Below are positions 44,201 to 62,003 of a stretch of 64,000 bases of DNA, piece after piece; position 1 is the stretch's first letter; each line of letters begins with the position of its first letter. Source of the stretch: a bacterium (lineage in GTDB: Bacteria; Zhuqueibacterota; QNDG01; JAGLOF01). The notes under the pieces are model-generated. The model was not told the DNA's origin and did not search any database. It was given only the letters and a program-made list of their open reading frames with translations. The stretch is taken from positions 1-64,000 of the forward strand of contig JAFGRY010000042.1 in the NCBI GenBank assembly GCA_016934955.1, in the 5' to 3' direction. Made by a program: the position numbers and the translations under genes.

Positions 44201-45178
44201 TTATTTTTTCCGTGAATACTGATAGATGATCTTCCCTTCCTTGTTGACGAAGGTGATGATCAGTTCATTGTCCTTCACCGTGCAGAGGGTAAATCCCGAG
44301 TCGTCGCTGCTGAACTGTTCGCCCTTGAGGTGCACCACCTCCCGGGTCTGGGAGGCGGATGTATTCACGAAGTAATCCACACCGGACCCAGCTGCGCGGA
44401 TATGCTGGAAATTATGAATGTGCCCGCCGATGGAGACATCGACATTGTGCTTGTCCAGGAGGGGCTGCAGCCGTTCCTGCAGATTGAGACGCTCCGACTC
44501 GCTCTTGGTGGTGCCTGCGTACACCGGGTGGTGTCCCATGACCATCTTCCATTTCGCGTCGGAGGCCGCAAGGGTCCGGTCGATCCAGTCGAGCTCAGTC
44601 TGCATGGACTGCATCGGCGCATCCCCGTGCACCACGTAGTCGTTCCGGTAGCGGTCGATCAGCGGCGCCGTATCTATATAGACCAGAAGAATGTCAGTAT
44701 CGTCGGTTACGCTCCAGGTCTGGGAATAGTACCGCCCCTCCATCATCCAGCGGCGGCTGACCGTGCCGTAGTCGAGCACCGCCTGGGTGTTTCCCCGGTA
44801 CTCGTGGTTGCCGAGTACGGGATACCACGGAAGCATGAGGGCGGGATGCTTGTACACCCACTCGAAATTGGTGAGCCAGAGAGGATCGTTCACCGACGCC
44901 ACCCCCCAGAAATGGTGCACATCACCCAGGGCTGCCACAAATTCAATACCAGTGATATCCGCGACTTCTCCCATCATTTCCGCCACTGCCCCCTGGTCGT
45001 AGTAGCCGTTCCGGCCGAAATCGCTTCCCATGAGAAACGTAAAATGGCCGTCCAGTTCAGCCAGGGTCCTGGCGTCTTTCGGCGGTACCGGCTGCGGCAC
45101 ACCCGCTGTCTGGGCGAGCAGAGCGCCCTGCACAACCATCAGCAGGACAAACGGCAGCAATGCATTACGCAGTTTCAT
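44201..45178 (-). CDS. Secreted calcineurin-like metallophosphoesterase
   Basis: Start taken at MKLRNALLPFVLLMVVQGALLAQTAG (signal peptide). GNHEY, MVMGHHPVY, DVSIGGHIHNFQH. Confidence 0.88.
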   Translation of the reverse strand: MKLRNALLPFVLLMVVQGALLAQTAGVPQPVPPKDARTLAELDGHFTFLMGSDFGRNGYYDQGAVAEMMGEVADITGIEFVAALGDVHHFWGVASVNDPLWLTNFEWVYKHPALMLPWYPVLGNHEYRGNTQAVLDYGTVSRRWMMEGRYYSQTWSVTDDTDILLVYIDTAPLIDRYRNDYVVHGDAPMQSMQTELDWIDRTLAASDAKWKMVMGHHPVYAGTTKSESERLNLQERLQPLLDKHNVDVSIGGHIHNFQHIRAAGSGVDYFVNTSASQTREVVHLKGEQFSSDDSGFTLCTVKDNELIITFVNKEGKIIYQYSRKK

Positions 45179-45299
45179 ACAATCTCCTCTGTTATACAGT
45201 ACTGATATTCCGGCAGAGCCGGAACGGCGTTTTCTATGGACACCCGCAATCTGTCCCGCGGTAAGCAGACACACGGGCAGGTTGCGGGCGATAGCCGGG

Positions 45300-46952
45300 T
45301 TAAAAGAGTGTCGCGGGATTGAGTATCCCCTGCGGATCGAGCGCATCTTTCACTTTCCGCATTTCGGCGATGTCCTTTCCTGAAAACATCACCTGGAAAA
45401 GCGGCTTCTTGATCCTTCCAATGCCGTGTTCACCGCTCACCGTGCCGCCCATGGCAACGACCTTTTCCGCCATGTCACGATAGAGCGCCTTGGCCGTTTT
45501 CAGTTCTTCCGTGTTCCGGGGCAGAATATTCACATGCAGATGGTTCTCTCCGATATGCCCGAATACCGCGTATTCAACCCCCGCCCCGTCGAGCACGGTG
45601 CGATACAGGTTCATGACATCGTCCAGGCGCTCATCGGAAACAGCAAAGTCGGTGCCGACCTTGTGCAGACCGGGCACCTCTTTCTGACGCTGTCCGATAA
45701 GGGTATTGACCGACTCGGGCAGGGCGTGCCGGAATTCGGTGATCTGTTCCCGCTCTTTTTCCGTCATGGCGCCCCACGTCTCGTCGATGGAGGAACGGCA
45801 CCGGGTCAGGATCTCTTCCCAGGCCATCACCACCTCATCCAGATCCTGCTCCCGGCACTCCTGTTCGAAGAATACGGCGGTACCCGCCGAGTCGCTGAAG
45901 GGCGGAATATGTGATCCCGCGCCGTCAGCCTCCCGCTTGTTCCGCAGGAGATCGAGGGAAGCGCCGTCAAAATATTCCAGGGCCGAGGGATGCACACTTG
46001 CTGATCCGCCGGCCTGGGCGGTACGAACCTCTTTTACAAAATCCACCGCGTCCTTTTCCGCGGGGAAAAATGCGACCGCCGCAAAAGTGAATTCCGGTTT
46101 TTTCTGAAGGGCCAGTTCCACTTCCGTGATGATACCCAGCGTTCCTTCCGAACCGATGAAATAATCGATGAGGTCCATGGGACGGGACACATAGTAGCCG
46201 GCGGCGTTCTTGATGCCGCTCAGCGAATAATCGGGGACCGGTATCTCCAGCCCGCCCCCCTCTTCCGTCTCAACCAGGAACGGCCCTTTCTCCTGTACAT
46301 ATGCGCCGCGGCGAAGGGCGAGCACCGCGCCGCCGGCCAGCACCACCCGCAGCCCCGTCACCCACACACGGGTCTGGCCGTACTTGTAGGAGCGGCCGCC
46401 CGAGGCATTGGTGGCCACGGTGCCGCCGATGTGGGCCGATTTTTCCGTTGGATCCACGGGATAGAACCAGTGTTCAGATTCTGCGGCAAACCGTGAAAAA
46501 GCCTCTTTTTCAGTATCTGTGATACACCCGCTCAGTTCGTTCAGGGAACCGCTTTCAAGCAGCTCCCTGAGGCCGTCGAGCGATAATCCGGGCTGTACGC
46601 GCACGCACCAGCGATCGGCCTCGTCATCCCGGCGCACCCCCAGAAAGCGGCTCATGTTCTCCAGTGACAGCAAGGCACCCCCCGAAGGCACCGCACCGCC
46701 GACGATACCGGTACGGGCTCCGGAAACCGTTACCGGCGTGCCCGCGGCCGACATCGTCCGCATGAATTCGCAGACCTGTTTCTCCGACCGGGGGAAAACG
46801 ATCACATCAACTCCTGATCCGCCGATACGGGATTCATCCGTGAGATAGGGCGCGTAACTTTCGAGAATCTCAGCGGCGCCGTCGATGCGCCTGAGCGGAT
46901 CACAATCAGGGAGGTCCCGGGCCGGGACAGTGCGTATGGGATGCATGCTCAT
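45300..46952 (-). CDS. FAD-binding (GlcD/D-lactate dehydrogenase-type) oxidoreductase
   Basis: VIVFPRSEKQVCEFMRTMSAAGTPVTVSGARTGIVGGAVP; AHIGGTVATNASGGRSYKYGQTRVWVTGLRVVLAGG; C-terminal FGHIGENHLHVNILP and SGEHGIGRIKK. Confidence 0.92.
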   Translation of the reverse strand: MSMHPIRTVPARDLPDCDPLRRIDGAAEILESYAPYLTDESRIGGSGVDVIVFPRSEKQVCEFMRTMSAAGTPVTVSGARTGIVGGAVPSGGALLSLENMSRFLGVRRDDEADRWCVRVQPGLSLDGLRELLESGSLNELSGCITDTEKEAFSRFAAESEHWFYPVDPTEKSAHIGGTVATNASGGRSYKYGQTRVWVTGLRVVLAGGAVLALRRGAYVQEKGPFLVETEEGGGLEIPVPDYSLSGIKNAAGYYVSRPMDLIDYFIGSEGTLGIITEVELALQKKPEFTFAAVAFFPAEKDAVDFVKEVRTAQAGGSASVHPSALEYFDGASLDLLRNKREADGAGSHIPPFSDSAGTAVFFEQECREQDLDEVVMAWEEILTRCRSSIDETWGAMTEKEREQITEFRHALPESVNTLIGQRQKEVPGLHKVGTDFAVSDERLDDVMNLYRTVLDGAGVEYAVFGHIGENHLHVNILPRNTEELKTAKALYRDMAEKVVAMGGTVSGEHGIGRIKKPLFQVMFSGKDIAEMRKVKDALDPQGILNPATLF

Positions 46953-46968
46953 GGTCAGCCTTTCCTCT

Positions 46969-48123
46969 TTACAACAGTGACGCTGTTCTGTTGGCAGTAT
47001 CCGGCAGTTTTTCAGTCCGGGGAATTCCGTCCGGAGCGACTACCAGATCCTCACCCGCGATGTCTGTCCAGCGGTAGAGCTGAAATGTCCTGTCGTCGGA
47101 CATGGCGACGAACAATCCGGCCGGGAAGGTTTCGTTCAGGACCGCGTTGGTCACATCGGAACCGTCGCTCTCCAAGGTCGATGTGTAGACGGTCTTCACC
47201 AGCGTATGCGTGTGGGGATCGTCCGGTTCCCCTTCCCGCTTGAAGATATTGAACCGGTTAGCCTGCTGATCGGACACCAGGATATAGCCGGTGCCCTCTT
47301 TGACAGTGTAGATGGAAATACCTTCGTGGTCACGGGCGAATCCCTCTGTCCCGAAGAGGGCCAGTTCTCTGTTCGCGTTCGGCGCGTCCGGGTCGGCCGC
47401 GTATTTGCGGATGCCGATGCATTCATCGGAGTAGTATACGTATCCCAGCTCGTCATCCACGGCGATGGCTTCGATCTCCTTGACGCCGCTGTAGGCACCG
47501 AATTCCCGCACTTTCACACCGCGTACCTGCCCGCCGCCGTCGTCTTCCAGGCGGTACTGCCAGAGATAGGTTCCGTCGATGGGGCCTTCCTTGCGGCCCA
47601 CAATGGCGAAAATCACCCCGTCCGAGGGGCGTTTGTAAAGAGCGATACCCATGGGCGCCCGCAGCGATTCACCCTCGAACACCGGGATCCCCCCGTTGTC
47701 GACCGGTGTCATGTCCGGGAGGCTGAATATCCGTAACGAATTGGTCAAGCGTTCCGTTGTCACCGCGATATCCGAGAAAACGCCGCCGAGGTTGAGGCCG
47801 TATTCGATGTCCACGTTATTCGGCCGCTTCAGGCCGCGTACCGTCTTTTCCTCGATGATCCGGCCGTCGAGATCGTACACATAGAGGGCGCCGTCTTCTT
47901 CCTTGTCCGTGCCGATGATCAGACTCAGGGCCGGGTCATCCGGATGCAGCCAGATAGCCGGGTCATCGGTGTCGTGGGCGGCCGGCTGTGTCACCACCGC
48001 AGGTTTCAGGGCGTGTTCGGCTATTGACGGTTTCTTTTCTCCGCAATTGACGATCAGCACCATGACAGCCGGCAGTATCACTGACGCCGCTGAAATGACT
48101 GATTTCATTTTCATAGACTTCAT
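46969..48123 (-). CDS. Beta-propeller phytase (3-phytase family), lipoprotein-like
   Basis: THDTDDPAIW-like HDTDDPAIWLHPDDPALSLIIGTDKEEDGALYVYDLDGRIIEEKTVRGLKRPNNVDIEYGL; EIEAIAVDDELGYVYYSDECIGIRKYAADPDA; DHEGISIYTVKEGTGYILVSDQQANRFNIFKREG. Confidence 0.93.
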   Translation of the reverse strand: MKSMKMKSVISAASVILPAVMVLIVNCGEKKPSIAEHALKPAVVTQPAAHDTDDPAIWLHPDDPALSLIIGTDKEEDGALYVYDLDGRIIEEKTVRGLKRPNNVDIEYGLNLGGVFSDIAVTTERLTNSLRIFSLPDMTPVDNGGIPVFEGESLRAPMGIALYKRPSDGVIFAIVGRKEGPIDGTYLWQYRLEDDGGGQVRGVKVREFGAYSGVKEIEAIAVDDELGYVYYSDECIGIRKYAADPDAPNANRELALFGTEGFARDHEGISIYTVKEGTGYILVSDQQANRFNIFKREGEPDDPHTHTLVKTVYTSTLESDGSDVTNAVLNETFPAGLFVAMSDDRTFQLYRWTDIAGEDLVVAPDGIPRTEKLPDTANRTASLL

Positions 48124-48215: not shown

Positions 48216-51017
48216 CTAGAATGAATATTTGATGCCGCCCTGTATCCACCAGGAGTAAAATTCCCTCTGCACGGGTCTGTTGCTGATTCCCATGTAGTAG
48301 CGCAGCGGTGCGTTGTTCATGTTGATCGCCTGCACGTACGCCTGGGCGCCGCCCCAGACATTCTGGGTGAGGGAGATATCCCACTGAATGTGGTTGTCAT
48401 AGTAGATATCGTAATCCTCGTTTTCACCCAGCTCCTCGAGATACCTGCCGTGATAGTTCATGCCCACACGCCCCGAAAATCCGCCTTTTTCATAGCTGAG
48501 GGCGAAGTTGGCGGTGTTCGCCGCCTGGCCGGGAATGGTAACGTCATCACGGCCGCTGATGGAGGCGTTGGACGTGGTATAGGTGTAGTTCGCGTAGATA
48601 CCGAACCCGCTCATCCATCCGGGCAGGAAGGTGAGCTGCTGCTGCCAGTTGACTTCAAAGCCCATCAGGGTCGCTTCATCACCCTGAACCGCCTGGAACA
48701 CTTCATACCCGTCATATTCGCCGTCGTCGATTTCATAGTAGGACGGGAAAATGATGTCGTTCATCTTTTTGTAGAAGAGGCCGCCGGAGAAGACACCGAT
48801 ACCCTGGAAATAGTGCTCGCCCATAAGGTCCAGGTTCGTAGCGGTTGTGGGATTCAGTTCCGGATTTCCCATTTCGATCTCTTCGTCTTCCCTGAGAACG
48901 ATGCGGTACGGTACCAGGTCCTCGTAATTGGGGCGGGCGATACCGGTGGTGAAGGCGGCCCGCAGATTGGTGTTGGCCCCGGGTTTGAAGCGCACATGCA
49001 CCATGGGCAGGAAGTAATTGTAATCGTTTTTGTTGGTGCGGGAAATGGTCTGTTCGTAATCGCCGTCTTCATTGAAGACCACTTCGTTTCCGGTATATTC
49101 AATTTTCGTGAACTCATGCCGGAAACCGCCCAGCAGCATCCATTTACCGATGTTCATTGTGGTCATGGCATAGTAGGCGTAGACATCCTCCGACGCGTCG
49201 TAGGTGGCTCCGTCGGAGTCTTCCCTGAGGTTCTCCCCTTCCAGATTATCTGTGTCTACATTATCCTGGAACCAGTCGTAGATCTTGTCCGGATCAGGAG
49301 AGAGCGGCATGGGATACTTTCCGTCCATGTAATTATCGACTTTATAGGTGTCGGTGAACCGGCTCATGAGAAGATCACCGTCGCCCTCCCAGCCGTACTC
49401 CATGATGGTTTCCGCACGGTCTTTTTTCTTCATCAGGGCCTTGGCGCCCATTTTAAAGCTGGCGTTGTTGGCTCCAATGGCATAGGGTATCTCAACGTTG
49501 AATCCGCCCACAATGTCGCGGTCAGTGGTTTTTGTGTCATCAACCTCGAAGAGATCAAGTACGTAATTGGCGGGATCATATTCATATCCGGCACCGAGGT
49601 TGGTGACCGTCCACTGCGGGTGATTCACATCAGATGCATCCAGTGTCAGGTCTGCATCCTCATCCAGTTCGAAGACGCTCGTCAGGTAACGGGGTTCCTC
49701 TTCCATAGCGTAACTGTAGGAGAAACGATAATCGAGTTTGAACTTGTCAAACTGATGGTCACCGCCGGCCATAAAATTGGTCACCGACATGTTCTGGTCC
49801 CGGTCCTTCAGTTCCGACTCGAAGGTCGCTTCAGAAATACTTGTCGCAGTAAGGTAATCGCCCTTTTCCGGGCGGGCCATGAGCCCGCGCCGCTGTTCCC
49901 GGTCCTGATATTTTGAATAGATGCCGGTCAGGTAAAGCTTGTGTCCGTCTTTCGGCAGATAATCCAGAGACCCGGTCATGGTCATGCGGTTGCGCCTGAT
50001 GCTGTAAATCCGGGTGTCGATATTGCGAAGGGCGAAAGGAATTTCCGTCTCGTCTACCGTCTCTTCGTCGCCCCATTCGATTTCATTGTTCTGTGAGCCC
50101 CGATAATGACGGTTATAACTTCCACTGAGCATGAATCCCAGGTTTTTCTTGGCCCCGAACCGGTCGCCGAAAGTGAAGCTGCCCTGGTAGATACCCTTGC
50201 TGCTCATATCGTTGTACCCGCTTCCCAGGTTGAGCGTGAAAACCCGGCCCGGGTAATCGAGAGCGGTCTTGGTTTTCAGTTCCACGGCGCCGCCGATGGC
50301 GTTGCCGTCCATATCCGGCGTGATCGCCTTGGTGACTTCAATGGACTGCAGCTGGTCCGCCGACACAACGTCCAGCGCCACGGTACGTACACCACCCTCG
50401 GGAGATGGAATCTTCTCACCGTTGATGGTCATGGAGTTGAGACGCGGGGATGTTCCCCGGACCAGGACATACCGTCCTTCACCCTGATCCCTGGTCACGG
50501 AAACACCGGAAACCCGCTGCAGCACCTCCGCGGAGTTGACATCGGGGAAACGGTGCATCTCCTCTTCATCCACCACATTCTTGATATTGGGGGCCGTCTT
50601 CTGCTGATTCAGGGCCCGCACCTGTCCCTGCCGGATGCCGTACACCGTAACGGTTTCTCCCTCCACCGCCCGTTCCTTCAGTTCAATGTCCTTTACGAGC
50701 ATCAGGGGGCCGACGGTGACTTCGCTCCTGAATTCCTCATAGCCGATATAGGTCACCGCGATGGTGTATCTGCCCGGAGGCACGTCCAGCCGGTAGACAC
50801 CGTATCGATCCGTTGCCGTACCGAGCTGGGTTCCTTCAATGGCCACATTGGCGCCGGGAAGTGTCTTGCCGCTTCCGGCATCAGTCACTTTGCCCATGAC
50901 CGTGCCTTTGGTCTGCGCGAAAAGAGCGGTTCCATTGAAAAGAATCGCCAGCACGCAGATGACAGCGATCACCGGCAGCGCATAGCCGCTGTTGGAAATC
51001 TGCATATTCTTTCTCAT
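48216..51017 (-). CDS. TonB-dependent receptor (phytase-associated)
   Basis: Signal peptide; carboxypeptidase-like domain GKVTDAGSGKTLPGANVAIEGTQLGTATDRYGVYRLDVPPGRYTIAVTYIGYEE; plug domain RFPDVNSAEVLQRVSGVSVTRDQGEGRYVLVRGTSPRLNSMTINGEKIPSPEG. Confidence 0.95.
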   Translation of the reverse strand: MRKNMQISNSGYALPVIAVICVLAILFNGTALFAQTKGTVMGKVTDAGSGKTLPGANVAIEGTQLGTATDRYGVYRLDVPPGRYTIAVTYIGYEEFRSEVTVGPLMLVKDIELKERAVEGETVTVYGIRQGQVRALNQQKTAPNIKNVVDEEEMHRFPDVNSAEVLQRVSGVSVTRDQGEGRYVLVRGTSPRLNSMTINGEKIPSPEGGVRTVALDVVSADQLQSIEVTKAITPDMDGNAIGGAVELKTKTALDYPGRVFTLNLGSGYNDMSSKGIYQGSFTFGDRFGAKKNLGFMLSGSYNRHYRGSQNNEIEWGDEETVDETEIPFALRNIDTRIYSIRRNRMTMTGSLDYLPKDGHKLYLTGIYSKYQDREQRRGLMARPEKGDYLTATSISEATFESELKDRDQNMSVTNFMAGGDHQFDKFKLDYRFSYSYAMEEEPRYLTSVFELDEDADLTLDASDVNHPQWTVTNLGAGYEYDPANYVLDLFEVDDTKTTDRDIVGGFNVEIPYAIGANNASFKMGAKALMKKKDRAETIMEYGWEGDGDLLMSRFTDTYKVDNYMDGKYPMPLSPDPDKIYDWFQDNVDTDNLEGENLREDSDGATYDASEDVYAYYAMTTMNIGKWMLLGGFRHEFTKIEYTGNEVVFNEDGDYEQTISRTNKNDYNYFLPMVHVRFKPGANTNLRAAFTTGIARPNYEDLVPYRIVLREDEEIEMGNPELNPTTATNLDLMGEHYFQGIGVFSGGLFYKKMNDIIFPSYYEIDDGEYDGYEVFQAVQGDEATLMGFEVNWQQQLTFLPGWMSGFGIYANYTYTTSNASISGRDDVTIPGQAANTANFALSYEKGGFSGRVGMNYHGRYLEELGENEDYDIYYDNHIQWDISLTQNVWGGAQAYVQAINMNNAPLRYYMGISNRPVQREFYSWWIQGGIKYSF

Positions 51018-51343
51018 CCTTCTCCTCCCCTCATTTTGGGTTGGTATACTCTACATGGTGTTCAGTCTGCTCCTGCACGTGTGCGTTACTGACGGCACAT
51101 CTTCTCTGTCCCTATCACCTCCTCTCTGCGGCATTGCCGGTCGATGTTGAACAATGTCGGTATTCCAATCACCTCCTTTTCAGACTGCATTCACTGCCTG
51201 CTGTATGGATAGTATGAATTCCGTTTCAATTGTTGCATCGTCAAAGAGAAAACATAGCACATCACTGTTAGGATCGAATGAGAATTCTGTTCAATAATCG
51301 TAGCAAACACCGGCACGACAACACCGGACCGGCGCATGACGCG

Positions 51344-52240
51344 TCACATCGCATACTGTTCCCGAATCAGTGTTTCCACTTCCGCCACCGTGCGCAGAAT
51401 CGGTCCCTCCGTCTCCATTTTCAGGCTGGTGACCGCGGCGGCCCAGACAGCGGCGTCCCCTGCGGAGGCAGCGAGGCGCCTGGCCATGTAGGCGGCGATA
51501 CAGGTGTCCCCCCTGCCGCTGCGCCCGATGAGCTGTTTCGGGCGAAAGGGCGCCTCATACAGGGAGCTGCCGTCATACACTACCAGTCCGTCCCGGTGGG
51601 TCAGTACGATTTCCGAGGGACCGAATTCAGCCAGCTTTTTCACCTGCTCCTTCGGATCCGATTCGCCGGTCAGGGTTTTCCCCTCAACGATATCGGCTTT
51701 CAGCACATCGATGAGGGAGAGAATCTCCTCCTTGCCCTCCCAGGGATCGAAGACGAGGTTTTTATCTTCACCGATGATCCGGACGAACCCCTGGGCGTCC
51801 GCCACCACTTTACCCTCTTTCGCTTTTAATGCGCGGATCACTTCCACAGGCACTTCTCCCCGCACCGACGCATTGATCAGAAAGGCCCGGGCCTCCAGGG
51901 GCGTCACCTGATCGGGAGTAAACGATCCCGCGGTGGCCTCCACCGTGAGGATGCGGTTGTCCACATCGGCCGTGGGATAGTAAAGCCGCATGAGCGTCGA
52001 CTGGTTCGTGTACACAGGAAAGGGATCGACACCCAGCTTCACCAGCGCATCCACGACATGGGAATCGGCCCTGTCCAGCCGGGTGACGGCTGCGGTCCTG
52101 AGCCCCATCATGGCCGCCACATGACACCCGTAATTGAATCCGCCGCCGTCCACCACCCGGGTTCCGGCGGCGGAGACAATCGTGTCCTTTGTGTAATTAC
52201 CGATTATCACAAGATCATATTTCATCGTTTTCCCGGTCAC
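51344..52240 (-). CDS. iolK: PfkB-family sugar kinase, IolK/TM0415-like (inositol kinase candidate)
   Basis: GRSGRGDTCIAAYMARR PfkB signature. VVADAQGFVRIIGEDKNLVFDPWEGKEEILSLIDVLKADIVEGKTLTG and AAAVTSLKMETEGPILR closely match recalled Thermotoga TM0415. Confidence 0.75.
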   Translation of the reverse strand: MTGKTMKYDLVIIGNYTKDTIVSAAGTRVVDGGGFNYGCHVAAMMGLRTAAVTRLDRADSHVVDALVKLGVDPFPVYTNQSTLMRLYYPTADVDNRILTVEATAGSFTPDQVTPLEARAFLINASVRGEVPVEVIRALKAKEGKVVADAQGFVRIIGEDKNLVFDPWEGKEEILSLIDVLKADIVEGKTLTGESDPKEQVKKLAEFGPSEIVLTHRDGLVVYDGSSLYEAPFRPKQLIGRSGRGDTCIAAYMARRLAASAGDAAVWAAAVTSLKMETEGPILRTVAEVETLIREQYAM

Positions 52241-52258: not shown

Positions 52259-53614
52259 CTAATCCCGCACTCTGGCCCGCCAGAGAGATGTGGCGAGAAT
52301 GATAGACAGTACCGACGATCCCACCCAGAAGAGAACGGGAATGCTGAAATCATAGGTGCGGACACTGTCCACAATGGTTGTTCCTTTTTCAATGAGCCAG
52401 CCGCTGATCCGCTCCTGGGTGGCTGCGGCCACATAACTGAAAATACCGATGAATCCCATAGCGGCGCCGGCCGCTTTCTTGGGAGCGATATCCACGGCAA
52501 AGAGACCGCCGAGAGCCGCCACCAGGCCGTTCAGGGAGAACCCGTAAAAGGCGAAGGCGATACTGGTCAGCCAGAGCTGATCGGCCGGGCCGAAAAAAAT
52601 GATGAGCAGGGACGATATCTCCAGCACTCCGCAGATGAGATTGACCGGGGGGCGCCGGGCGCCGAAGAGTTTATCCGAGATGAATCCGTAGGCGACCGCT
52701 CCGGCGATCCCGGCGGTGGTGCTGATGCCCAGCATGGAACCGGCCTTGACCAGGGAAAATCCCCGGGCCTCCTGCAGATAGAGAATGCCCCAGCCGTTGA
52801 TGGCGTAGCGGGTCATGTACATCATAGCGCTGGCCAGGGCCAGTACCCAGATAGCCGGCATTTTCAGGATCAGTTTCTGCGCCTGGGCCGTTTTCAGCGG
52901 TTTGCCCTCCGTATCGCTGATGGCAATGCCGTGATCATTCTTCCAGTCGGCGACTGACGGAAGGCCCAGCGTCTGCGGACGGTCACGCATGAAAATAAAC
53001 ATAACGATCGCTACAATGATACAGACCATGCCCGGGCCCCAGAACCCAAACTGCCAGCCGAACAGGCTCACCAGGGCCGCTGAACCCACAAAGGTCAGCC
53101 CTTCACCGATAGAGTGTCCCGTGCTCCAGATGCCGTAGTACCGGCCCCGCTCGCGGTTGCTGAACCAGTTGGAAAGCGAGACCACCCCGGACGGGGCGCC
53201 GAATCCCTGGAACCAGCCGTTTATCCCCCAGAGCACCGCCCACATCCAGAGATGCTCGCTGCGCCCCATGGCGAGATTGACGAGCGCGGACATGAGCACA
53301 CCGAATGATAAAAACCGGCGAATATTGGCATGATCGGCCAGAAATCCGTTGACCAGTTTACCGACCGCATACCCGTACAACAGCGCCGAACCGATGACCC
53401 CGAGCTGCTCCGCCGAAAAGATGCCGGTGTCGATGAGCGGTTTCTTGACCACTGAAAGTCCCAGCCTGCATGTGTAGGAGAATCCGTATCCGATACTGAT
53501 GCAGAGCATGATGGCGACCCGGTGACGCGCGTACATCCGGTTGATTTTTTCCTTGTCCTGAATCTGCGGTTTGTCTTCGCCCGTGGCAAAAAATCTGATC
53601 AAAGAGGTCATCAA
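52259..53614 (-). CDS. GlpT/UhpC-family organophosphate:phosphate antiporter-like MFS transporter
   Basis: GYGFSYTCRLGLSVVKKPLID, GWFQGFGAPSGVVSLSNWFSNRERGRYYGIWSTGHSIGEGLTF, MMYMTRYAINGWGILYLQEARGFS; family-conserved Arg and His positions retained. Confidence 0.88.
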   Translation of the reverse strand: MMTSLIRFFATGEDKPQIQDKEKINRMYARHRVAIMLCISIGYGFSYTCRLGLSVVKKPLIDTGIFSAEQLGVIGSALLYGYAVGKLVNGFLADHANIRRFLSFGVLMSALVNLAMGRSEHLWMWAVLWGINGWFQGFGAPSGVVSLSNWFSNRERGRYYGIWSTGHSIGEGLTFVGSAALVSLFGWQFGFWGPGMVCIIVAIVMFIFMRDRPQTLGLPSVADWKNDHGIAISDTEGKPLKTAQAQKLILKMPAIWVLALASAMMYMTRYAINGWGILYLQEARGFSLVKAGSMLGISTTAGIAGAVAYGFISDKLFGARRPPVNLICGVLEISSLLIIFFGPADQLWLTSIAFAFYGFSLNGLVAALGGLFAVDIAPKKAAGAAMGFIGIFSYVAAATQERISGWLIEKGTTIVDSVRTYDFSIPVLFWVGSSVLSIILATSLWRARVRD

Positions 53615-53656: not shown

Positions 53657-55006
53657 TCAGTCCGCCACTTTCACTTTCCAGAGCGATGTTGCCAGTATCA
53701 GCGATACAATCGAAGTCCCGACCCAGAACAGGATGGGAGCATCAAAATTATAATGGCGAACACCGTCCACAATCTGCGTTCCCGCCTGAATCAGGACGCC
53801 GCTGATCTGTTCCTGCAGAGCGGCGCCGAGATAGCTGAACACGCCGATAAATCCCATGGCCGCGCCGCTGACCCGCTTGGGCGCGATATCGATGGCGAAG
53901 AGACCGCCCAGGGCCGCCAGAATGCCGCTGAGACTGAATCCATAGACGACAAACGCCGCGGTGAGGATTACGGCATTGCCGGACGGCGCGAAGAAAATGA
54001 CCAGCAGGGCCGCCACTTCCAGGAGCCCGTAGGCAAGGGTCACCGGGGGTCTGCGGGCCCTGAAGAGCTTGTCTGAAATGAAACCGTAGGCCGCGCAGCC
54101 GGCGATACCGGCGATGGTGTTGAGTCCCAGAATGCTGCCGGCTTCCACCAGCGTGTACCCCTTTGCCTCCTGCAGGTAGAGGATGCCCCAGCTGTTGATG
54201 GCGTAGCGGGTGGCGCTCATGGTGGCGCAGGCGAGCCCCAGCACCCACATGGCCGGCATTTTTAAAATCAGCAGCTGCATTCGTGTGGTGGACATGTTAT
54301 TTGTGTCGGCCTTCACCGCAGCGCCGTGATCATTCTTCCAGTCGGCAACGGGCGGCAGCCCGTAGGTCCCGGGTCTGTCCTGAAGGGCGAGGTAGAGGCT
54401 GACCGCCACGAGAACACAGAAGAGCCCGGGTCCGATGAAACCGGCCCGCCAGCCCCAGAGAGAAACGAGGGCGGCGGTGCCCACAAAGGTCAGTCCCTCT
54501 CCAATGGAGTGGGCCGTGCTCCAGATACCGTAATAGCGGCCCCGCTCACGGTTACTGAACCAGTGCGACATGGAAACCACGCTCGATGGAGACCCGAATC
54601 CCTGAAACCAGCCGTTGACCCCCCAGAGGAGTGCCCAGACAGTGAACCCCATGATCGAGCCCATTGCGAGGTTGATCAGGGCAGAGACAAGCAGTCCGAA
54701 GGAAAAATACTTCTTGATATTGGCATGGTCGGCGAGGAAGCCGTTGGTCAGCCTTCCGAACGCGTACGTATAGAAAAAGGCGGATCCGATAACGCCGAGC
54801 TGCTCCGGGGAGAGCAATCCGGCATCGATCACCGGCTTTTTGATCACCGACATCGCCAGTCTGCAGGTATAGGTGAACCCGTATCCCAGGGTAATGGCGA
54901 TCATGACGGCCAGTCGCTTCCTTCGGAAGAGACGGTCTATCAGCGCCTTATCCGTTATCCGCGGCTTGTCCGGTCCTGTCTTGAAAAAAACGAAGGGATT
55001 ATACAT
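53657..55006 (-). CDS. GlpT/UhpC-family organophosphate:phosphate antiporter-like MFS transporter (tandem paralog)
   Basis: GYGFTYTCRLAMSVIKKPVID, GWFQGFGSPSSVVSMSHWFSNRERGRYYGIWSTAHSIGEGLTF, ATRYAINSWGILYLQEAKGYT; strongly similar to the 52259-53614 product. Confidence 0.88.
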   Translation of the reverse strand: MYNPFVFFKTGPDKPRITDKALIDRLFRRKRLAVMIAITLGYGFTYTCRLAMSVIKKPVIDAGLLSPEQLGVIGSAFFYTYAFGRLTNGFLADHANIKKYFSFGLLVSALINLAMGSIMGFTVWALLWGVNGWFQGFGSPSSVVSMSHWFSNRERGRYYGIWSTAHSIGEGLTFVGTAALVSLWGWRAGFIGPGLFCVLVAVSLYLALQDRPGTYGLPPVADWKNDHGAAVKADTNNMSTTRMQLLILKMPAMWVLGLACATMSATRYAINSWGILYLQEAKGYTLVEAGSILGLNTIAGIAGCAAYGFISDKLFRARRPPVTLAYGLLEVAALLVIFFAPSGNAVILTAAFVVYGFSLSGILAALGGLFAIDIAPKRVSGAAMGFIGVFSYLGAALQEQISGVLIQAGTQIVDGVRHYNFDAPILFWVGTSIVSLILATSLWKVKVAD

Positions 55007-55021: not shown

Positions 55022-56071
55022 TTATGCCCAGGGGTTCAGAACCATTTTCATGGCCTGCTTCGGCAGGTTCTTCCGGCCCGCCACATCCAGTCCAACTTTT
55101 TTAAAGGCCTCTATCGCGTCTTTCAGCGGTACGGTCTCCGTGAAAAACGGCCCCATGTCCATCTTTTCCGCTTCCAGCAGGCGAATGGCCGGCAGGATGG
55201 TGTTCTGTCCGATGTAGGTGCCGAGAATCTTGATAGCGTTTCGGGTGATCTGATAGGGCGTCACCGTCGCTTCAAAACTCGAGTCCATGCCGAATGCGAG
55301 AATTTTTCCGCCCGGCGTCACATACTCCAGGGCGCTGGCCAGCTGGGTGCCCACGGCGTCGATGACGATATCCGCCTTTTTCCCGCGGGTCATATCAAGC
55401 ACCGCGGCCTGAATATCCGTGCTGTCGGGATTATAGACGGCGAATCCCATGCTTTTTGCCAGATTGAACCGCCAGGGATCGATTTCGGTCACCAGCACCC
55501 GGGTCGCGACGTTCCGGGCCATGGATGCGAACAGGTAGCCGATGGGCCCGAATCCGAGAATCACCACCAGATCCCAGGGCTGCATCTGCACCGTGTTCAT
55601 GCCGTTGAGCACGGTGCCCAGGGTTTCGACCTGGGTGGCGGTGACGTCGTCCAGGGAGTCAGGAATTTTAAAGCAGACGTCTTCGGTTGCCAGACAGTAC
55701 TGGGCGTAGCCGCCGTTTTGAAACACGCCCAGAGTGCGGTTTTTCAATTCGACGCACTGGGAACTGATACCGTTGCGGCAGAAATCGCAGAGACCGCAGC
55801 GGGAATTGTTGTCCAGGGCGATCCGGTCGCCCGGTTTCACGGCTGTTACCTCGCTGCCCACTTCCACAACCGTTCCGTGAAATTCGTGGCCAAGCACCAC
55901 ATTCGCTTTCCAGGCGTGCTTGTCCTCGACTATTTTCACATCCGAACCGCAGATGCCGCAGAGGGCCACTTTCACGATTACCTGATTCGTTTTGGTGATC
56001 CGGGGCATGGGAATCGATTCAAACTCCACTTTCCACGGTTCCTTAAAGACCATTGCTTTCATGGTTTCCAT
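55022..56071 (-). CDS. Zinc-dependent medium-chain alcohol/polyol dehydrogenase
   Basis: CGICGSDVKIVEDKHAWKANVVLGHEFHGTVVEVG; structural Zn Cys cluster RCGLCDFCRNGISSQC; VVILGFGPIGYLFASMARN. Confidence 0.88.
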   Translation of the reverse strand: METMKAMVFKEPWKVEFESIPMPRITKTNQVIVKVALCGICGSDVKIVEDKHAWKANVVLGHEFHGTVVEVGSEVTAVKPGDRIALDNNSRCGLCDFCRNGISSQCVELKNRTLGVFQNGGYAQYCLATEDVCFKIPDSLDDVTATQVETLGTVLNGMNTVQMQPWDLVVILGFGPIGYLFASMARNVATRVLVTEIDPWRFNLAKSMGFAVYNPDSTDIQAAVLDMTRGKKADIVIDAVGTQLASALEYVTPGGKILAFGMDSSFEATVTPYQITRNAIKILGTYIGQNTILPAIRLLEAEKMDMGPFFTETVPLKDAIEAFKKVGLDVAGRKNLPKQAMKMVLNPWA

Positions 56072-56088: not shown

Positions 56089-56895
56089 TCAGGGGAACAT
56101 AATGCGTAAATGTTCCATGGTTTTTCGGGATGCTGTTTCCGGATCGGGATTTGGGAGAATCTCCGCGGAAACATATCCCTCATATCCGTTACGGTACAGC
56201 GTATCCAGTACGGCCCTGAAGTCGATGTGGCCGGCGCCGGGATACCAGCGGTTTGAATCGGCCGCATGAAAATGGAACGTGTGCCCGGCGGCGTTTTCAA
56301 TAGACTGAAAAATGGATGGTTCCTCGATATTCATATGAAAAGTGTCGAGGAGCAGTCCGATCCGGGGAAGCCCGGTCTGTTTGATGAACGCCAGTGTCTC
56401 ACCCACCGTGCAGAGCAGGTCCGTTTCATAGCGGTTGATCGGCTCGATGGCCAGGCGGACATCCGGCCGGTGCTGCACACATTCGGCGAGACACTCGGCC
56501 GTATGCGCGAGCGCCGATTCCCGGGTTCCGCCCGGGGGTATCTTCCCCCGGACCAGCCCGACAATCACGACGGCGCCGAGATCGGCGGCCAGATCCATCT
56601 GCAGCCGCATGCGGTCCACGGCTTTTTTCCGGATCGCCCCCTCGGGATGGGTGAACGAGAGCCCCTCTTCTCCGTAGGCCTGGCCGGTTCCGATGGCCGG
56701 CACCTCCATCCCCGTCTCCTCGAGCAGGCGGTCGAGAAGATCCCGGTCGAGACTGCGGGGATCCCGGACGGCCAGCTCCACTCCGTCGTATCCGCGCGCA
56801 TGAATACCGCGGATATTCTCTTCGATGGCGCCCTTGTAGGCAAGAGCGCTGAAGGACGCCGGCTGAGTGGAAAGAACGATTGCCAGTTTCATCAA
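56089..56895 (-). CDS. iolO: TIM-barrel sugar isomerase/epimerase, IolO-like (5-keto-L-gluconate epimerase candidate)
   Basis: AIGTGQAYGEEGLSFTHPEGAIRKKAVDRM, AIEPINRYETDLL, LLLDTFHMNIEEPSI, HFHAADSNRWYPGAGHIDFRAVLDTLYRNGYEGYVSAEILP match recalled Thermotoga TM0416. Confidence 0.8.
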   Translation of the reverse strand: MMKLAIVLSTQPASFSALAYKGAIEENIRGIHARGYDGVELAVRDPRSLDRDLLDRLLEETGMEVPAIGTGQAYGEEGLSFTHPEGAIRKKAVDRMRLQMDLAADLGAVVIVGLVRGKIPPGGTRESALAHTAECLAECVQHRPDVRLAIEPINRYETDLLCTVGETLAFIKQTGLPRIGLLLDTFHMNIEEPSIFQSIENAAGHTFHFHAADSNRWYPGAGHIDFRAVLDTLYRNGYEGYVSAEILPNPDPETASRKTMEHLRIMFP

Positions 56896-58014
56896 TTACA
56901 GCCCCATCTTCCTGATGGCATAGATGGGACGCCATCCTTTGGTAAACGGCTCTTTCAGATAGGGCTTCATCTCCTCTTCCGTACGCATGGTGGTCTTTTC
57001 CAGGGGCGGGAATTTCCCGGCGGGATAGGCTTCAAGTATCTCGTCATGCAGCAGCGTCAGATAGGACAGTATGGCCGCGATGGTCCGCTTCGCCTTTTTT
57101 GCCGTGGCGATGGTAGGCCGGCCGACCACTCCTTCGGGAATGGACCCTATCTCCATGGGTCCGTGCCCCTGACCTTCCGACCAGCGGCAGGGCCGTCCAA
57201 AGGGATCGACCGCCTTGTCCATGTGACCATCGGGGAGGAATCCCTTGACCTTGGTTTCCTCGGCCAGGGACATCTCCACGTATTCCGGCGCCAGCAGCAG
57301 CATCACCGAGGTTTCAGCCTCGTCGGCATGGAAGAAATCATCATCCCAGTCGCCGCCCCGGTCCTTGGTGCGGAAAAATTCCCGTACGGCCCGGTGCCAG
57401 TCGATGGTGCGGAAGATGCCCGGCAGGTTCCAGGTTTTCTGCAGTTCCTGAATGGCCGCTTCCAGCAGCCAGGAGTGGCCGTGATTGTTGATGAGGATGA
57501 TCTTCCGGAACCCGTCGTTCCAGAGCCCCACCATGACATCGATGAGCATGCGCTTCAGCACCTCGTCTTCCAGGTGGATGGTGCCCGGCATGCCGATATG
57601 GTGATGGGGATGTCCGCCGTAATTCAGGGGTGTCCAGACCAGGTTGACCGGCGTGCCTTTTTTGGCGGTGTACCGGCGCACCCCTTCCAGAATCTGGGTC
57701 ACCATGAAAGTGTCCAGCGCGGTTACAGTGTGACGGCCGTGCAGTTCCGTGCATCCGATGGGCACGAATACGATGTCGTTTTTCTTCCGGTTCTCCACTA
57801 CTTTCTGCCGGATGGTGGTCTGTACATAGGTGCCCGGCTTGCCCAGCTCCGACGGCGAGGGAATGCCGTACTCGGCAAGGATGGCATCGACCTCTTTTTC
57901 CGACGCCTCCCATATCCGCTTTTTCAAACGCCCCACCGAGGTAGCTTCGAACTGGATATCGGCCCGGTTGGATTCAAGCCATGTACTCATTATGATACTC
58001 CTTTCTAATCGCAC
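56896..58014 (-). CDS. Creatininase-family hydrolase (candidate IolN diketo-inositol hydrolase)
   Basis: VFVPIGCTELHGRHTVTALDTFMVTQILEG, NYGGHPHHHIGMPGTIHLEDEVLKRMLIDVMVGLWNDGFRKIILINNHG; abuts the IolO-like gene. Confidence 0.8.
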   Translation of the reverse strand: MRLERSIIMSTWLESNRADIQFEATSVGRLKKRIWEASEKEVDAILAEYGIPSPSELGKPGTYVQTTIRQKVVENRKKNDIVFVPIGCTELHGRHTVTALDTFMVTQILEGVRRYTAKKGTPVNLVWTPLNYGGHPHHHIGMPGTIHLEDEVLKRMLIDVMVGLWNDGFRKIILINNHGHSWLLEAAIQELQKTWNLPGIFRTIDWHRAVREFFRTKDRGGDWDDDFFHADEAETSVMLLLAPEYVEMSLAEETKVKGFLPDGHMDKAVDPFGRPCRWSEGQGHGPMEIGSIPEGVVGRPTIATAKKAKRTIAAILSYLTLLHDEILEAYPAGKFPPLEKTTMRTEEEMKPYLKEPFTKGWRPIYAIRKMGL

Positions 58015-58033: not shown

Positions 58034-59221
58034 TTACGGTATGACAGTTATTTTCACTTCTTCCCGGTCGGTCTGCAACATGACCAGGTTCTCTTTGACC
58101 TCATCCAGGCCGATCTTCTTGGTGATGAGAGCTGATACATCCATGCCGGCGCTCATGGCGCTGATGACCCGGGGAAAGGTGCCGTGACCTGAATGTCCCT
58201 GGGCGCCGACCACCCGGGCGCGTCGCACCTGGAACACCTCTCCGTTGAGCGGAATGCGGTCATCGGCCCTGGCGACGATCACCACCGTGGCGTTGAGGGT
58301 CCGGCCCTCCCAGATCACTTTCTCCACATCGTTCCAGACGACGCTGGGCAGGCCCGTGGCTTCCAGGATGAGATCCGCGCCCATCCCTTTTGTGATCTCG
58401 AGCACCGCCTCCGCGGTTCTGGTGCTCGTGGGATCGAAGGTGTGGGTGGCGCCCATGTTCTCCGCCATCTTCCTTCGGGATGCCGATGGTTCCGAAAGGA
58501 TGACCGCCGTGGCCCCGGCCCGGCGCAGGATCGCGCAGGCGGCGATGCCCACGGGACCGCCGCCGAGAATCAGCACATTGTCCCCCGGACGAATCCCGCC
58601 GCCGCGCTCGATGACCGCATTATAGGCCACCGATGTCGGTTCGACCAGGCTGCCCAGTTCCCACATCTTCCCCTCTCCGTAGCGCTCTCGCAAATCCTCC
58701 AGGCTCCAGAGGTAGCGGGCATCCATTTTAATATATTTCGCATAGGCGCCGTCTACGGAAAATCCGATCTCCTGCAGATTTTCACAGTGGTTGGGAAACC
58801 CGTCGGCGCAGGGACGGCAGGCCGCGCACCAGACCATCTCTTCACTGCAGACCGGTTCGCCTTTCTCATAAGGTTTGCCGGTACGCTTGTTCAGGGCCGC
58901 GGACCCGGCTTCCACCACCGCTCCGGAAAATTCATGGCCCAGGGTACAGGGAAAAGCGGTAAGACCGGGATAGTAGATGTAGCCGTCGGTATCGGTCTGC
59001 AGCATGTGCACATCGCTGCCGCAGACACCGCAGGCCTTTACTTCGATCAGCACTTCGCTGGGACCGGGAACCGGCACCTCCTTTTCCACGATCTCGATAC
59101 GGGGATTCCGCCATACCTTGCTCCCCAGATAGGTGAGTTTCCCCTCGACATCCTTGGCCCCGAGGGTGAATTCCGGTCTTGGATCCCAATCGGCAAAATT
59201 ACATACAGTTTTCATGCCCAC
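58034..59221 (-). CDS. iolM: Zn-dependent dehydrogenase, IolM-like (scyllo-inosose 3-dehydrogenase candidate)
   Basis: WDPRPEFTLGAKDVEGKLTYLGSKVWRNP, CGVCGSDVHMLQTDTDGYIYYPGLTAFPCTLGHEFSGAVVEAG, RADDRIPLNGEVFQVRRARVVGAQGHSGHGTFPRVISAMSAGMD match recalled Thermotoga TM0412 along its length. Confidence 0.85.
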   Translation of the reverse strand: MGMKTVCNFADWDPRPEFTLGAKDVEGKLTYLGSKVWRNPRIEIVEKEVPVPGPSEVLIEVKACGVCGSDVHMLQTDTDGYIYYPGLTAFPCTLGHEFSGAVVEAGSAALNKRTGKPYEKGEPVCSEEMVWCAACRPCADGFPNHCENLQEIGFSVDGAYAKYIKMDARYLWSLEDLRERYGEGKMWELGSLVEPTSVAYNAVIERGGGIRPGDNVLILGGGPVGIAACAILRRAGATAVILSEPSASRRKMAENMGATHTFDPTSTRTAEAVLEITKGMGADLILEATGLPSVVWNDVEKVIWEGRTLNATVVIVARADDRIPLNGEVFQVRRARVVGAQGHSGHGTFPRVISAMSAGMDVSALITKKIGLDEVKENLVMLQTDREEVKITVIP

Positions 59222-59268: not shown

Positions 59269-60279
59269 TTAATAATCCGCCACCAGTACGATGCTGTTCC
59301 GGTGCAGAGAATCGGTGGCCGCGGCCGCAATCTGCAGGCCGGCGATCCCGTCATCTATGGTGATCATGGGTTCCTTGTCGTGAATCAGGTTCTCGAGAAA
59401 GTCATTCAGCTGATTAACGTAGGCATCACCGAACCGTTCGGGAAAATAGGGAACGACATCATGGGTAACGCCGGCCTTGGTCATGATATTGATGGCGGTA
59501 TCTCTGAGATATCCTGCCTGCACGGTACCCTCGGTACCCAGCACCTCCGCGCGGATATCATACCCGTAGACCCCGTTCCGGCTGATATCGATTTCTCCCA
59601 GTCTCCCGTTCTCGAAGGTCATTACCATGATCACGTTGTCGGTATCATGGACCTCCGCGATCTCCGGGTACGCCAGAATGCCGCCCACGGCGTAGACGCT
59701 CCTGACCTCCCCCATGTACCAGCGTGCGATGTCTATATCGTGAATGGCCATATCGAGAATCTGGCCGCCGCTGTTCTCCGGGGTCAGGTATTCCAGGCTC
59801 GGCCGGTAGGGATCCCGGGATGAGCCCCGGAAGACACAGGGGGTGCCGATGGTGCCCGCATCGATTTCCCGTTTTGCCGCGGCAAAGGCCTTGTCGAAGC
59901 GGCGCATATATCCCTGCTGATAAAATATGCCGGTTTTCTCAATAACGGACTTCATCTCCCGGGCATCAGCCAGATCGAGGGTCATGGGTTTTTCACAGAA
60001 GACCGGTTTTCCTTTTTCGGCCGCGTCTACGACGATTTCCCGGTGATTTACCGTTGTTGCGGTGACAATCACCGCATCGAGACTCAGGTCATCGTTGAGG
60101 TCTTGATGCCCCGTGTACCAGTTAGGCACATCGAATTTCTCCGCGCAGGTTTTCGCCCGTTCCGGGATCAGGTCAGCCACAGCCGCAAGATTGGCCCCCG
60201 GCACCCGTGTGCTGAGGAATTCCGCGTACATCGAACCCAGACGGCCGGTTCCGATGAGCCCCACATTGATTTTTTTCAT
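59269..60279 (-). CDS. iolG: Gfo/Idh/MocA oxidoreductase, IolG-like (inositol 2-dehydrogenase candidate)
   Basis: VGLIGTGRLGSMYAEFL Rossmann motif; FCEKPMTLDLADAREM; GYMRRFDKAFAAAKREIDAGTIGTP; GGQILDMAIHDIDIARWYMGE. Confidence 0.85.
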   Translation of the reverse strand: MKKINVGLIGTGRLGSMYAEFLSTRVPGANLAAVADLIPERAKTCAEKFDVPNWYTGHQDLNDDLSLDAVIVTATTVNHREIVVDAAEKGKPVFCEKPMTLDLADAREMKSVIEKTGIFYQQGYMRRFDKAFAAAKREIDAGTIGTPCVFRGSSRDPYRPSLEYLTPENSGGQILDMAIHDIDIARWYMGEVRSVYAVGGILAYPEIAEVHDTDNVIMVMTFENGRLGEIDISRNGVYGYDIRAEVLGTEGTVQAGYLRDTAINIMTKAGVTHDVVPYFPERFGDAYVNQLNDFLENLIHDKEPMITIDDGIAGLQIAAAATDSLHRNSIVLVADY

Positions 60280-60324: not shown

Positions 60325-61005
60325 TTACCAGCCCATCCGCTCAAAAAGAGACTCGAGATACCCCGCCCCGCCGGAATTGGCCTGGGGAAAGAAAATACCG
60401 GTCCATCCGTACGCCCGGCAGCGTACGATATTTTCAAACCGGTCATCGATGAACACCGTGCCGCCGTCCAGTCTTCCCAGCGCACCCGTGACGGCCCTGA
60501 ACATTTCAAACCCCGGGCTGTCCTTGACCGCACCCACCCGGCTGGAGGAGATGACCCTCTCCTCCGGGAAAAAGCGGTGAAGTCCGGCTTTCTGCATCTG
60601 TTTGCGAATCCAGAATTCATTGTTGTTGGAACAGATAGCCATGGGAATGCCCCGTTCCGCGACGGACTCAAGCAGGGCGGTCATTCCCGCCACCGGGCAT
60701 ATAAAATCATCGGTCATGGCAATGAGCTCATCGATTGAGAGGGACACCGGAAAACGGGAGCGGAACCGTTCCCAGTACTGCCGTTCCAGCGCTTCGGGTG
60801 TGTCCGTTTCGCTGCAGGGCCGAAGCTCGAATGCCCGCCAGAGAGCCGGGGCGAAGTCAGCCACTTCCTTCATATCGAGTCCGCAGACCGCCGCCACGCT
60901 CTTTTCCGGATCCAGCAGCAGGTGCTCCCAGACGTCCCGGACAAGCACACCGCCGATATCGAATACAACCGCCCCTATCGATGTCGTGTGAGGGTTCATC
61001 ATCAC
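60325..61005 (-). CDS. HAD-superfamily (subfamily IA-like) hydrolase
   Basis: AVVFDIGGVLV motif I; AICSNNNEFWIRKQMQKAGL; EERVISSSRVGAVKDSPGFEMF; GTVFIDDRFENI motif IV. Confidence 0.85.
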   Translation of the reverse strand: MMMNPHTTSIGAVVFDIGGVLVRDVWEHLLLDPEKSVAAVCGLDMKEVADFAPALWRAFELRPCSETDTPEALERQYWERFRSRFPVSLSIDELIAMTDDFICPVAGMTALLESVAERGIPMAICSNNNEFWIRKQMQKAGLHRFFPEERVISSSRVGAVKDSPGFEMFRAVTGALGRLDGGTVFIDDRFENIVRCRAYGWTGIFFPQANSGGAGYLESLFERMGW

Positions 61006-62003
61006 TCCTTCAGGTGGGCTTCAAGAACGATCTGATGGGGCGCCCTTTGGGGATTATTGATCGTATCGATAAGCACCTCAACCACTTTATCTCCCATGGT
61101 CTCCACCGGAAGCACCATGTGAGAGAGAGATTTTGAGGAAAACGGGTTCACTTCACCGTCACCGATAAAGGTCAGATCGATGTCTTCTGGTATTCTGACA
61201 CCGACTTCCGCGGCTGCCTTGTACACTCCCAGGGCCACGGAAAAACCGGCGGTGAAAATGATCTCCGGCAGCCGCCCGGACCGGTAGATCCGCATAAATC
61301 CTTCGTACCCGTGAGACTTGCTGAATCCGCCCTCGATAAGCCATTCAGGTTCGATGGCGAGCCCATGATCATGCATGGCGTCTCTGAACCCCTGCAGCCG
61401 GTCCCGGCCCACGGGATTGGTTGCATAACAGGCGAGATTGGCGATGTGTGAATACCCTTTCTCGATGGCGTGCTCGACGGTGCGGTACGCGGCCATGCGG
61501 TCATCGACCCGTACGCAGCTGACACCGGAAATATCGAGGATACGGTCGAACATCACCATCGGAATGCCCATGCGCGTCACCTTTTCGAACGCCGAGGGAG
61601 CGCTGGTGTTTTCAGTCACCGATACCAGCAGCCCGTCAACACGCATGGCCATCAGTGATTCGATGTGCTGCGCTTCCCGTTTCGGATCTTCATAGGAGAC
61701 CGCCAGCAGGACTTCATATCCGTTCCGGTACATGGCGTCATAAATCGCCTTGATAATAGTGGGATAGAAATAATCGGTGATTTTGGGGACCACCAGCCCG
61801 ATAATGTGCGACCGTCTGGACGAGAGGGAGCGGGCCATCATGTTGGGCGAATAACCGCGCTCTTCAGCGAGATCCCTGACCCGCTTTTTGGTCGCGGACG
61901 AAATATCCGGATGATCCCGCAGAGCCTTGGAAACGGTGACTCTGGATACACCAAGCTCGACGGCCAGATCATTCAGCGTTATCTGAGAGGGTTTCTTCAT
62001 CAT
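61002..62003 (-). CDS. LacI-family transcriptional regulator
   Basis: ITLNDLAVELGVSRVTVSKALRDHPDISSATKKRVRDLAEERGYSPNMMARSL HTH and hinge; periplasmic-binding-like domain. Start taken at 62003 or 62000 rather than the track start at 62087. Confidence 0.95.
   Translation of the reverse strand: MMKKPSQITLNDLAVELGVSRVTVSKALRDHPDISSATKKRVRDLAEERGYSPNMMARSLSSRRSHIIGLVVPKITDYFYPTIIKAIYDAMYRNGYEVLLAVSYEDPKREAQHIESLMAMRVDGLLVSVTENTSAPSAFEKVTRMGIPMVMFDRILDISGVSCVRVDDRMAAYRTVEHAIEKGYSHIANLACYATNPVGRDRLQGFRDAMHDHGLAIEPEWLIEGGFSKSHGYEGFMRIYRSGRLPEIIFTAGFSVALGVYKAAAEVGVRIPEDIDLTFIGDGEVNPFSSKSLSHMVLPVETMGDKVVEVLIDTINNPQRAPHQIVLEAHLKE

Follow-up and report, generated by a model that had tools for sequence, protein, structure and literature searches.

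A candidate inositol-phosphate utilization locus joining a divergent beta-propeller phytase and a TonB receptor to a Thermotoga-type inositol pathway

The window analysed here comprises the first 64,000 nucleotides of contig C12 (C12:1-64,000; JAFGRY010000042.1) of a genome of 4.4 Mb in 52 contigs, which is about 90% complete. It contains a cluster of fourteen genes, all on the minus strand (44,201-62,087), with a LacI-family regulator at the upstream end and a metallophosphoesterase as the last gene. All features of the window described below lie on this strand. An inositol operon forms the upstream part of the cluster, and a phytase, a TonB-dependent receptor and the metallophosphoesterase are all present downstream of it, as the original prediction had placed them. 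The only large gap inside the cluster, of 326 bp (51018..51343), separates the kinase gene iolK from tonB.

The predicted inositol pathway is encoded by IolG (inositol 2-dehydrogenase, 59269..60279), IolM (scyllo-inosose 3-dehydrogenase, 58034..59221), IolN (3-dehydro-scyllo-inosose hydrolase, 56896..58014) and IolO (5-keto-L-gluconate epimerase, 56089..56895). In profile searches, the last three exceed the cut-offs of curated NCBIfam equivalog models named for the Thermotoga maritima enzymes (IolM, NF041097, 499 bits against 450; IolN, NF041098, 321 against 245; IolO, NF041099, 325 against 300). IolG falls slightly short of its own cut-off (TIGR04380, 335 bits against 355), and any other family scores far worse. 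The best solved structure for IolM is 3ip1 (E = 3e-177). The N-terminus of IolN extends past the model, and its score compares with 523 bits for the form found in genome G017. On these matches, the Thermotoga-type route IolG-IolM-IolN-IolO is probably complete in the window. The T. maritima pathway was described by Rodionova et al. 2013, as cited in PMC12632266. Downstream of IolO lies a second zinc alcohol dehydrogenase (ADH2, 55022..56071), a distant relative of IolM (188 bits to the IolM model, below the cut-off), which is conserved together with the transporter and kinase genes described next.

IolK (51344..52240) is a putative ribokinase-family (PfkB) inositol kinase, whose closest solved structure is TM0415 of T. 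maritima. According to PMC5931981, which also reports the structure of TM0415, this enzyme uses pyrophosphate rather than ATP as donor and a five-residue signature defines this preference. In the IolK of the window this signature is complete (K171, F221, R229, R232 and M266, with the RXGRGD motif). The acceptor pocket retains D11, Q141 and R145, whereas N78, S89 and L116 are replaced by L, L and S, the TM0415 pocket being N/S/L. The pyrophosphate signature is conserved across homologues with the L/L/S pocket, one of which has a Trp in place of F221. A Chloroflexi homologue with this pocket, No. 49 in PMC5931981, is pyrophosphate-dependent and phosphorylates inositol, and its authors suspect a different genuine acceptor. 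L/L/S-type kinases are accompanied by OPA-family transporters in nearly every locus examined. The exception, L119 from a member of the Syntrophaceae, has two IolK types in one iol locus, with L/L/S and N/V/L acceptor pockets, respectively.

Two such transporters, OPA-1 (53657..55006) and OPA-2 (52259..53614), are encoded between ADH2 and IolK. Both are MFS proteins that match the UhpC, PgtP and GlpT models best, below every equivalog cut-off, and are assigned to the OPA family at family level. Like the GlpT and UhpT antiporters, they retain the residues R45, H165 and R269 of GlpT, which are invariant across all complete OPA homologues examined and include the two phosphate-binding arginines (R45 and R269); K80 is kept in OPA-2 and replaced by R in OPA-1. 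Because the transporters retain these phosphate-site residues, inositol phosphates, and not inositol alone, are probably imported. The import of inositol or its phosphates that had been proposed for the locus can be refined: import genes are present, in the form of OPA transporters beside a pyrophosphate-type kinase in the core of the cluster, with an inositol ABC importer outside the window. The latter lies just past the window edge and is 58-71% identical to the importer within the iol locus of G037, so the idea that the genome lacks an ABC inositol importer was rejected.

The second half of the cluster starts with the TonB-dependent receptor (48216..51017), which has an N-terminal carboxypeptidase-regulatory-like domain (TIGR01782, 534 bits against a cut-off of 310). 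It is followed by the beta-propeller phytase (BPP, 46969..48123), which, like its relatives, is a lipoprotein as judged by eye from the N-terminus. The BPP matches the Pfam Phytase family PF02333 with 160 bits against a cut-off of 21, the match ending at profile position 333 of 375. Its closest solved structures are the Bacillus alkaline phytases (3amr, 1h6l and 1poo), with which it shares about 28% identity. The top PDB fold match of its AlphaFold2 model (pLDDT 90) is also a Bacillus phytase (E = 6e-24, TM-score 0.74-0.81). We take the phosphate and calcium site of the Bacillus enzymes to consist of D55, D56, K76, N99-D102, R104, R122, Y159, K179, E211, E227, D258, E260, D308 and D314. The subfamily of the window BPP keeps most of these residues, namely D55, D56, K76, N99, D102, R122, K179, E211, E227, D258, E260 and D314. 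In contrast, Y159 is replaced by M, R104 is replaced by E, and D308 is absent in nearly all of its members. As these three residues of the Bacillus phytase are missing, activity on inositol hexakisphosphate (InsP6, phytate) is not assured. The window BPP is accordingly classed, on residue conservation, as a divergent M159/E104 subfamily of the phytase fold family and not as a proven phytase. A plasmid origin of this gene was also considered and rejected, the best plasmid matches listed being ordinary phytases of less than 31% identity.

The metallophosphoesterase (44201..45346, PF00149) has a predicted signal peptide when read from an internal Met at about 45,181. Its nearest structure is mammalian tartrate-resistant acid phosphatase (TRAP). 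The tyrosine of the GDxxY motif, which is one of the seven metal ligands of TRAP and purple acid phosphatases and gives them their purple colour, is replaced by a histidine, and the remaining TRAP motifs within the alignment are kept. Because this metal ligand is replaced, the label is limited to a secreted TRAP-like metallophosphoesterase. As a separate observation, the 326-bp leader of tonB contains two perfect copies of AGGAGGTGAT, the complement of the 16S anti-Shine-Dalgarno sequence (51114-51123 and 51168-51177), and two similar ones are found in G041. Genome-wide, AGGAGGTGAT occurs 18 times, compared with 2 occurrences of the reversed pattern.

The gene-neighbourhood comparison suggested in the original prediction was carried out by family searches in 82 genomes of the KSB1/Calditrichia phylum, 15 of which have IolN and 27 a BPP. 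Six genomes carry the two genes on the same contig and strand, no more than 20 kb apart, compared with 0.098 expected (P ~1e-9 under independence), a count that treats genomes as independent although G037 and G051 belong to one genus and G059 to the same family. This linkage is far above chance, so the two halves are conserved together in related genomes, the opposite of the outcome that would have refuted the original prediction. In a seventh genome, G041, the whole gene order is present across a contig break. Linkage is thereby seen in five families (f1, f7, f12, f18 and f19), with f7 represented by G041 and f12 by G018, whose BPP is of another type and whose set of genes is reduced. The association is specific to the BPP subfamily: 9 of the 13 genomes that carry the window subfamily also have IolN (p = 9e-6), whereas among genomes with only other BPPs, which provide a useful internal control, it is 1 of 14 and there is no association (p = 0.96).

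G041 belongs to a different family from the window genome and exhibits an identical order from EtfA through the metallophosphoesterase. Its cassette is split on two contigs that abut inside OPA-1, with four codons missing. The cassette proteins of the two genomes are 71-93% identical, whereas GyrB is only 65% identical and the protein encoded beside GyrB 69%; GyrB was taken as the yardstick since rpoB was not found in the incomplete window genome. Among the 82 phylum genomes, neither IolN nor BPP was found in those of the window's own order. Because the order in G041 is the same, the identity exceeds that of GyrB and the window's own order yields neither IolN nor BPP, the cassette was most likely acquired horizontally as a whole.

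Retrieval based on IolN across phyla gave 78 named loci. Those from Firmicutes, Spirochaetes and some other groups contain iol genes without BPP or TonB receptor. In the Neomarinimicrobiota genome G083, one contig ends with ADH2 and an OPA transporter, and another starts with IolK, two metallophosphoesterases, a TonB receptor and a BPP. Classic BPPs and a TonB receptor are transcribed divergently from the iol operon in L064 and L066, and a Bacteroidales contig, L078, has a TonB receptor and a classic BPP ahead of IolM and IolN. Different BPP subfamilies have thus entered the same genomic slot. Metallophosphoesterases are also found next to iol genes in L056, L060, L064 and L067. Judged from gene order and identity, the gene cluster is conserved across two phyla and seems to move between lineages as a unit.

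We therefore propose, with a probability of roughly 0.7, that the locus is a single, horizontally mobile utilization cassette through which inositol phosphates would feed carbon metabolism, phytate and its degradation products being the likeliest substrates. The single integrated phytate-to-inositol system envisaged in the original prediction is supported by the conservation of the two halves together across families and in Neomarinimicrobiota, and by their joint movement between two lineages. The part of that claim which names phytate itself holds less firmly: lower inositol phosphates fit the gene content equally well, and InsP6 is only a presumed substrate, given a BPP that lacks some active-site residues. 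Gene identities, conservation, co-transfer and key residues have a basis in the sequence; from there, we infer the substrate and the direction of transport. Phosphates would be removed by the BPP, a lipoprotein anchored at the surface, and by the secreted metallophosphoesterase, and the inositol phosphates, which are polyanions, would pass the outer membrane through the TonB receptor. The two OPA antiporters may then bring in inositol monophosphate against phosphate, and free inositol may enter through the neighbouring ABC transporter. In the cytosol, inositol would be converted by IolG, IolM, IolN and IolO to D-tagaturonate, which could be channelled by a UxaE-like epimerase, an oxidoreductase, a nickel epimerase-like protein, a sugar kinase and 6-phosphogluconate dehydrogenase into the pentose phosphate pathway.

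The genes for these last steps lie beyond the window edge. C12:64,223-79,426 encodes, on the same strand, a GntR-type regulator, the ABC importer, a sugar kinase, a nickel hexonate epimerase-like protein, 6-phosphogluconate dehydrogenase (Gnd), a mannonate oxidoreductase-like short-chain dehydrogenase/reductase, a UxaE-like epimerase, a LacI-family regulator and GntP. Relatives of the nickel enzyme in groups 19 and 20 interconvert mannonate and gluconate (PMC7583248). The lower pathway may thus run from tagaturonate through fructuronate, mannonate, gluconate and 6-phosphogluconate to ribulose-5-phosphate. A route through UxuA was rejected, as UxuA was not found in G000, G041, G037 or G043, in which the controls matched. 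A hexuronate/gluconate module with the UxaE-like, short-chain dehydrogenase, Gnd, nickel hexonate epimerase-like and sugar kinase genes can be delimited in this region (L191, C12:63500-83499). A similar set is contiguous with IolN and IolO in L061. As the set in G074 includes a glucuronate isomerase, the lower pathway probably serves hexuronates too.

Several observations weigh against an integrated system. Four genomes carry the window BPP subfamily without IolN (G012, G040, G077 and G081; L174-L177), three of them with a TonB receptor or its fragment next to the BPP, and six genomes have IolN without this subfamily. The BPP site is not the complete Bacillus-type site, and the gap before tonB separates the two halves. 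An operator shared by the iol and tonB promoters was not found in the window, where no copy precedes tonB. Finally, there is a precedent in Flavobacterium for a BPP-TonB pair that acts as a phosphate-starvation system (PMC8115612).

With regard to regulation, the iol genes of most relatives are preceded by a regulator resembling one in which Pfam recognises GntR and a sugar-binding domain. The palindrome TTGT[AC]TA[GT]ACAA is found upstream of the iol regulator in many loci. In L066 and L072, two copies of this operator lie between tonB and the regulator, and some of these copies have a single mismatch. In the window genome, the GntR-type regulator and its operator lie just upstream of the window, and a LacI-type operator was looked for in the window and not identified. 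Co-regulation of the two halves is thus supported by the operators of relatives and unproven in the window genome.

The strongest alternative accepts the same working and changes the substrate, which would be lower inositol phosphates (InsP1-InsP3) or phosphodiesters such as glycerophosphoinositol, derived from the phospholipid head groups of dead cells. The replacement of Y159 by Met and R104 by Glu and the loss of D308 in the BPP subfamily point in this direction, as do the OPA transporters, which suit monophosphates, and a glycerophosphodiesterase-like open reading frame, recognised by eye, that lies close to the iol genes of L057 on the other strand (1785-2519). However, L064, L066 and L078 hold classic, full-site BPPs in the same genomic slot, which argues for phytate-type substrates for this type of locus, and we regard the alternative as possible though doubtful. 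Another explanation questions the role of the kinase and the OPA transporters, which would serve the synthesis or salvage of inositol phosphate, for instance for an osmolyte or phospholipid head group, in a cell whose inositol genes and phytase are nevertheless real. TM0415-type kinases do make inositol monophosphate from inositol and pyrophosphate (PMC5931981), and a CDP-alcohol phosphatidyltransferase adjoins the G037 locus. In complete loci, however, the kinase and OPA genes are located between the iol enzymes and the phytase, and the window yielded no recognisable gene dedicated to inositol lipids or osmolytes, which makes this explanation quite unlikely.

It could also be argued that the BPP, the TonB receptor and the metallophosphoesterase scavenge phosphate and are merely adjacent to the inositol operon. 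BPP-TonB pairs do occur without iol genes: Fjoh_1367/1368 of Flavobacterium are an adjacent BPP and TonB receptor, both induced at low phosphate, with the enzyme predicted at the outer membrane (PMC8115612), and in Citromicrobium a BPP gene adjoins a TonB receptor gene (PMC3400609). The pairs known so far are phosphate-starvation or stand-alone systems, whereas the pair of the window is joined to inositol catabolism and has a different BPP subfamily. Scavenging would also fit the 326-bp gap, the failure to find a shared operator in the window genome, and the histidine kinase with an OmpR-type regulator that neighbours the TonB-BPP genes of G043 (L024:8590-11073), possibly a phosphate or substrate sensor. 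Yet mere adjacency is at odds with a linkage far above chance, with the subfamily-specific co-occurrence, with co-transfer and with the same order in a separate phylum. The two operators between the divergent tonB and regulator genes of L066 and L072 also argue against it, and no Pho-box-like site was found in the window. Taken together, phosphate scavenging by an independent half is very unlikely, and a single inositol-phosphate cassette is preferred.

Within the cassette, a more speculative role can be considered for IolK. After import by the OPA transporters in exchange for phosphate, inositol phosphate might react with phosphate to give inositol and pyrophosphate, the reverse of the kinase reaction. 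If so, the last phosphoester bond of phytate would be conserved as pyrophosphate for a membrane pyrophosphatase, making its use phosphorolytic instead of hydrolytic. A membrane pyrophosphatase is present in 11 of 11 genomes tested, this enzyme being common in general. The standard free energies for the reverse reaction are moderately unfavourable. In the passages of PMC5931981 consulted, only the forward direction is reported for TM0415-type kinases, and we consider the reverse role unlikely.

The remaining features of the locus are as follows. The LacI-family regulator (61002..62087) probably starts at about 62,003 and has a 79% identical orthologue at the same position in G041. Upstream of it is a sigma-70-like promoter, TTGACA-17-TATCAT (11/12 matches, 62086..62114), the top match in the region, where such matches are no more numerous than in shuffled sequence. 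A HAD-superfamily hydrolase (60325..61005), found at the locus in G000 and G041 only, may be a cytosolic inositol-phosphate phosphatase. The metallophosphoesterase gene is followed at its 3' side by a terminator-like hairpin ending in a T-run (~44132..44176), identified by reading the sequence, and no Rfam family matched within 44-64 kb of the window. An FAD-linked dehydrogenase of the D-LDH/GlcD/LctD type (45300..46952) is encoded between the BPP and the metallophosphoesterase, and G041 has one in the same place. EtfB and EtfA, the latter with an N-terminal ferredoxin domain, flank the locus upstream (62191..64000) as part of the conserved synteny, EtfA having the same position in G041. In L056 (1832-5087), an EtfB-like open reading frame, EtfA and an FAD dehydrogenase adjoin one another directly upstream of the iol regulator. 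Together, the Etf and FAD dehydrogenase genes resemble a bifurcating hydroxyacid dehydrogenase that may be linked to the catabolism of inositol.

Compared with known systems, the window resembles T. maritima in IolM, IolN and IolO, in its TM0415-like kinase with the pyrophosphate signature, and in the UxaE-like and nickel hexonate epimerase-like genes on its contig. It differs from T. maritima in that the pathway is joined to a TonB receptor, a BPP, a metallophosphoesterase and OPA transporters. As in SusC/D-type polysaccharide utilization loci, a surface hydrolase lipoprotein, a TonB receptor, an inner-membrane importer, catabolic enzymes and a regulator occur together, whereas inositol phosphate would be the substrate class and SusD was not recognised. 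The original prediction knew of no described locus joining a BPP, a TonB receptor and the Thermotoga-type pathway. Likewise, no description of a BPP and a TonB receptor together with IolM, IolN and IolO was found in the literature searched, which is weak evidence of novelty since most subscription journals lay outside it. BPP-TonB pairs have been described, and so has the inositol pathway of Thermotoga; that literature yielded no case in which the two are united with OPA transporters and a pyrophosphate-type kinase. The divergent phytase subfamily is the most novel part of the utilization locus.

Phytate is a major pool of organic phosphorus, and work on bacterial phytases has usually treated them as scavengers of phosphorus. 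The gene content of the locus suggests that these microbes may feed on plant-type inositol phosphates in addition to drawing phosphorus from them. By coupling dephosphorylation at the surface, capture at the outer membrane, import of phosphate esters and a full inositol route, a conserved and transferable locus of this kind would open phytate as a source of carbon to phyla that are largely uncultured. The locus also provides a genomic marker for this use of phytate, and offers a testable function both for the phytase subfamily with its divergent site and for the puzzling inositol kinases that depend on pyrophosphate.

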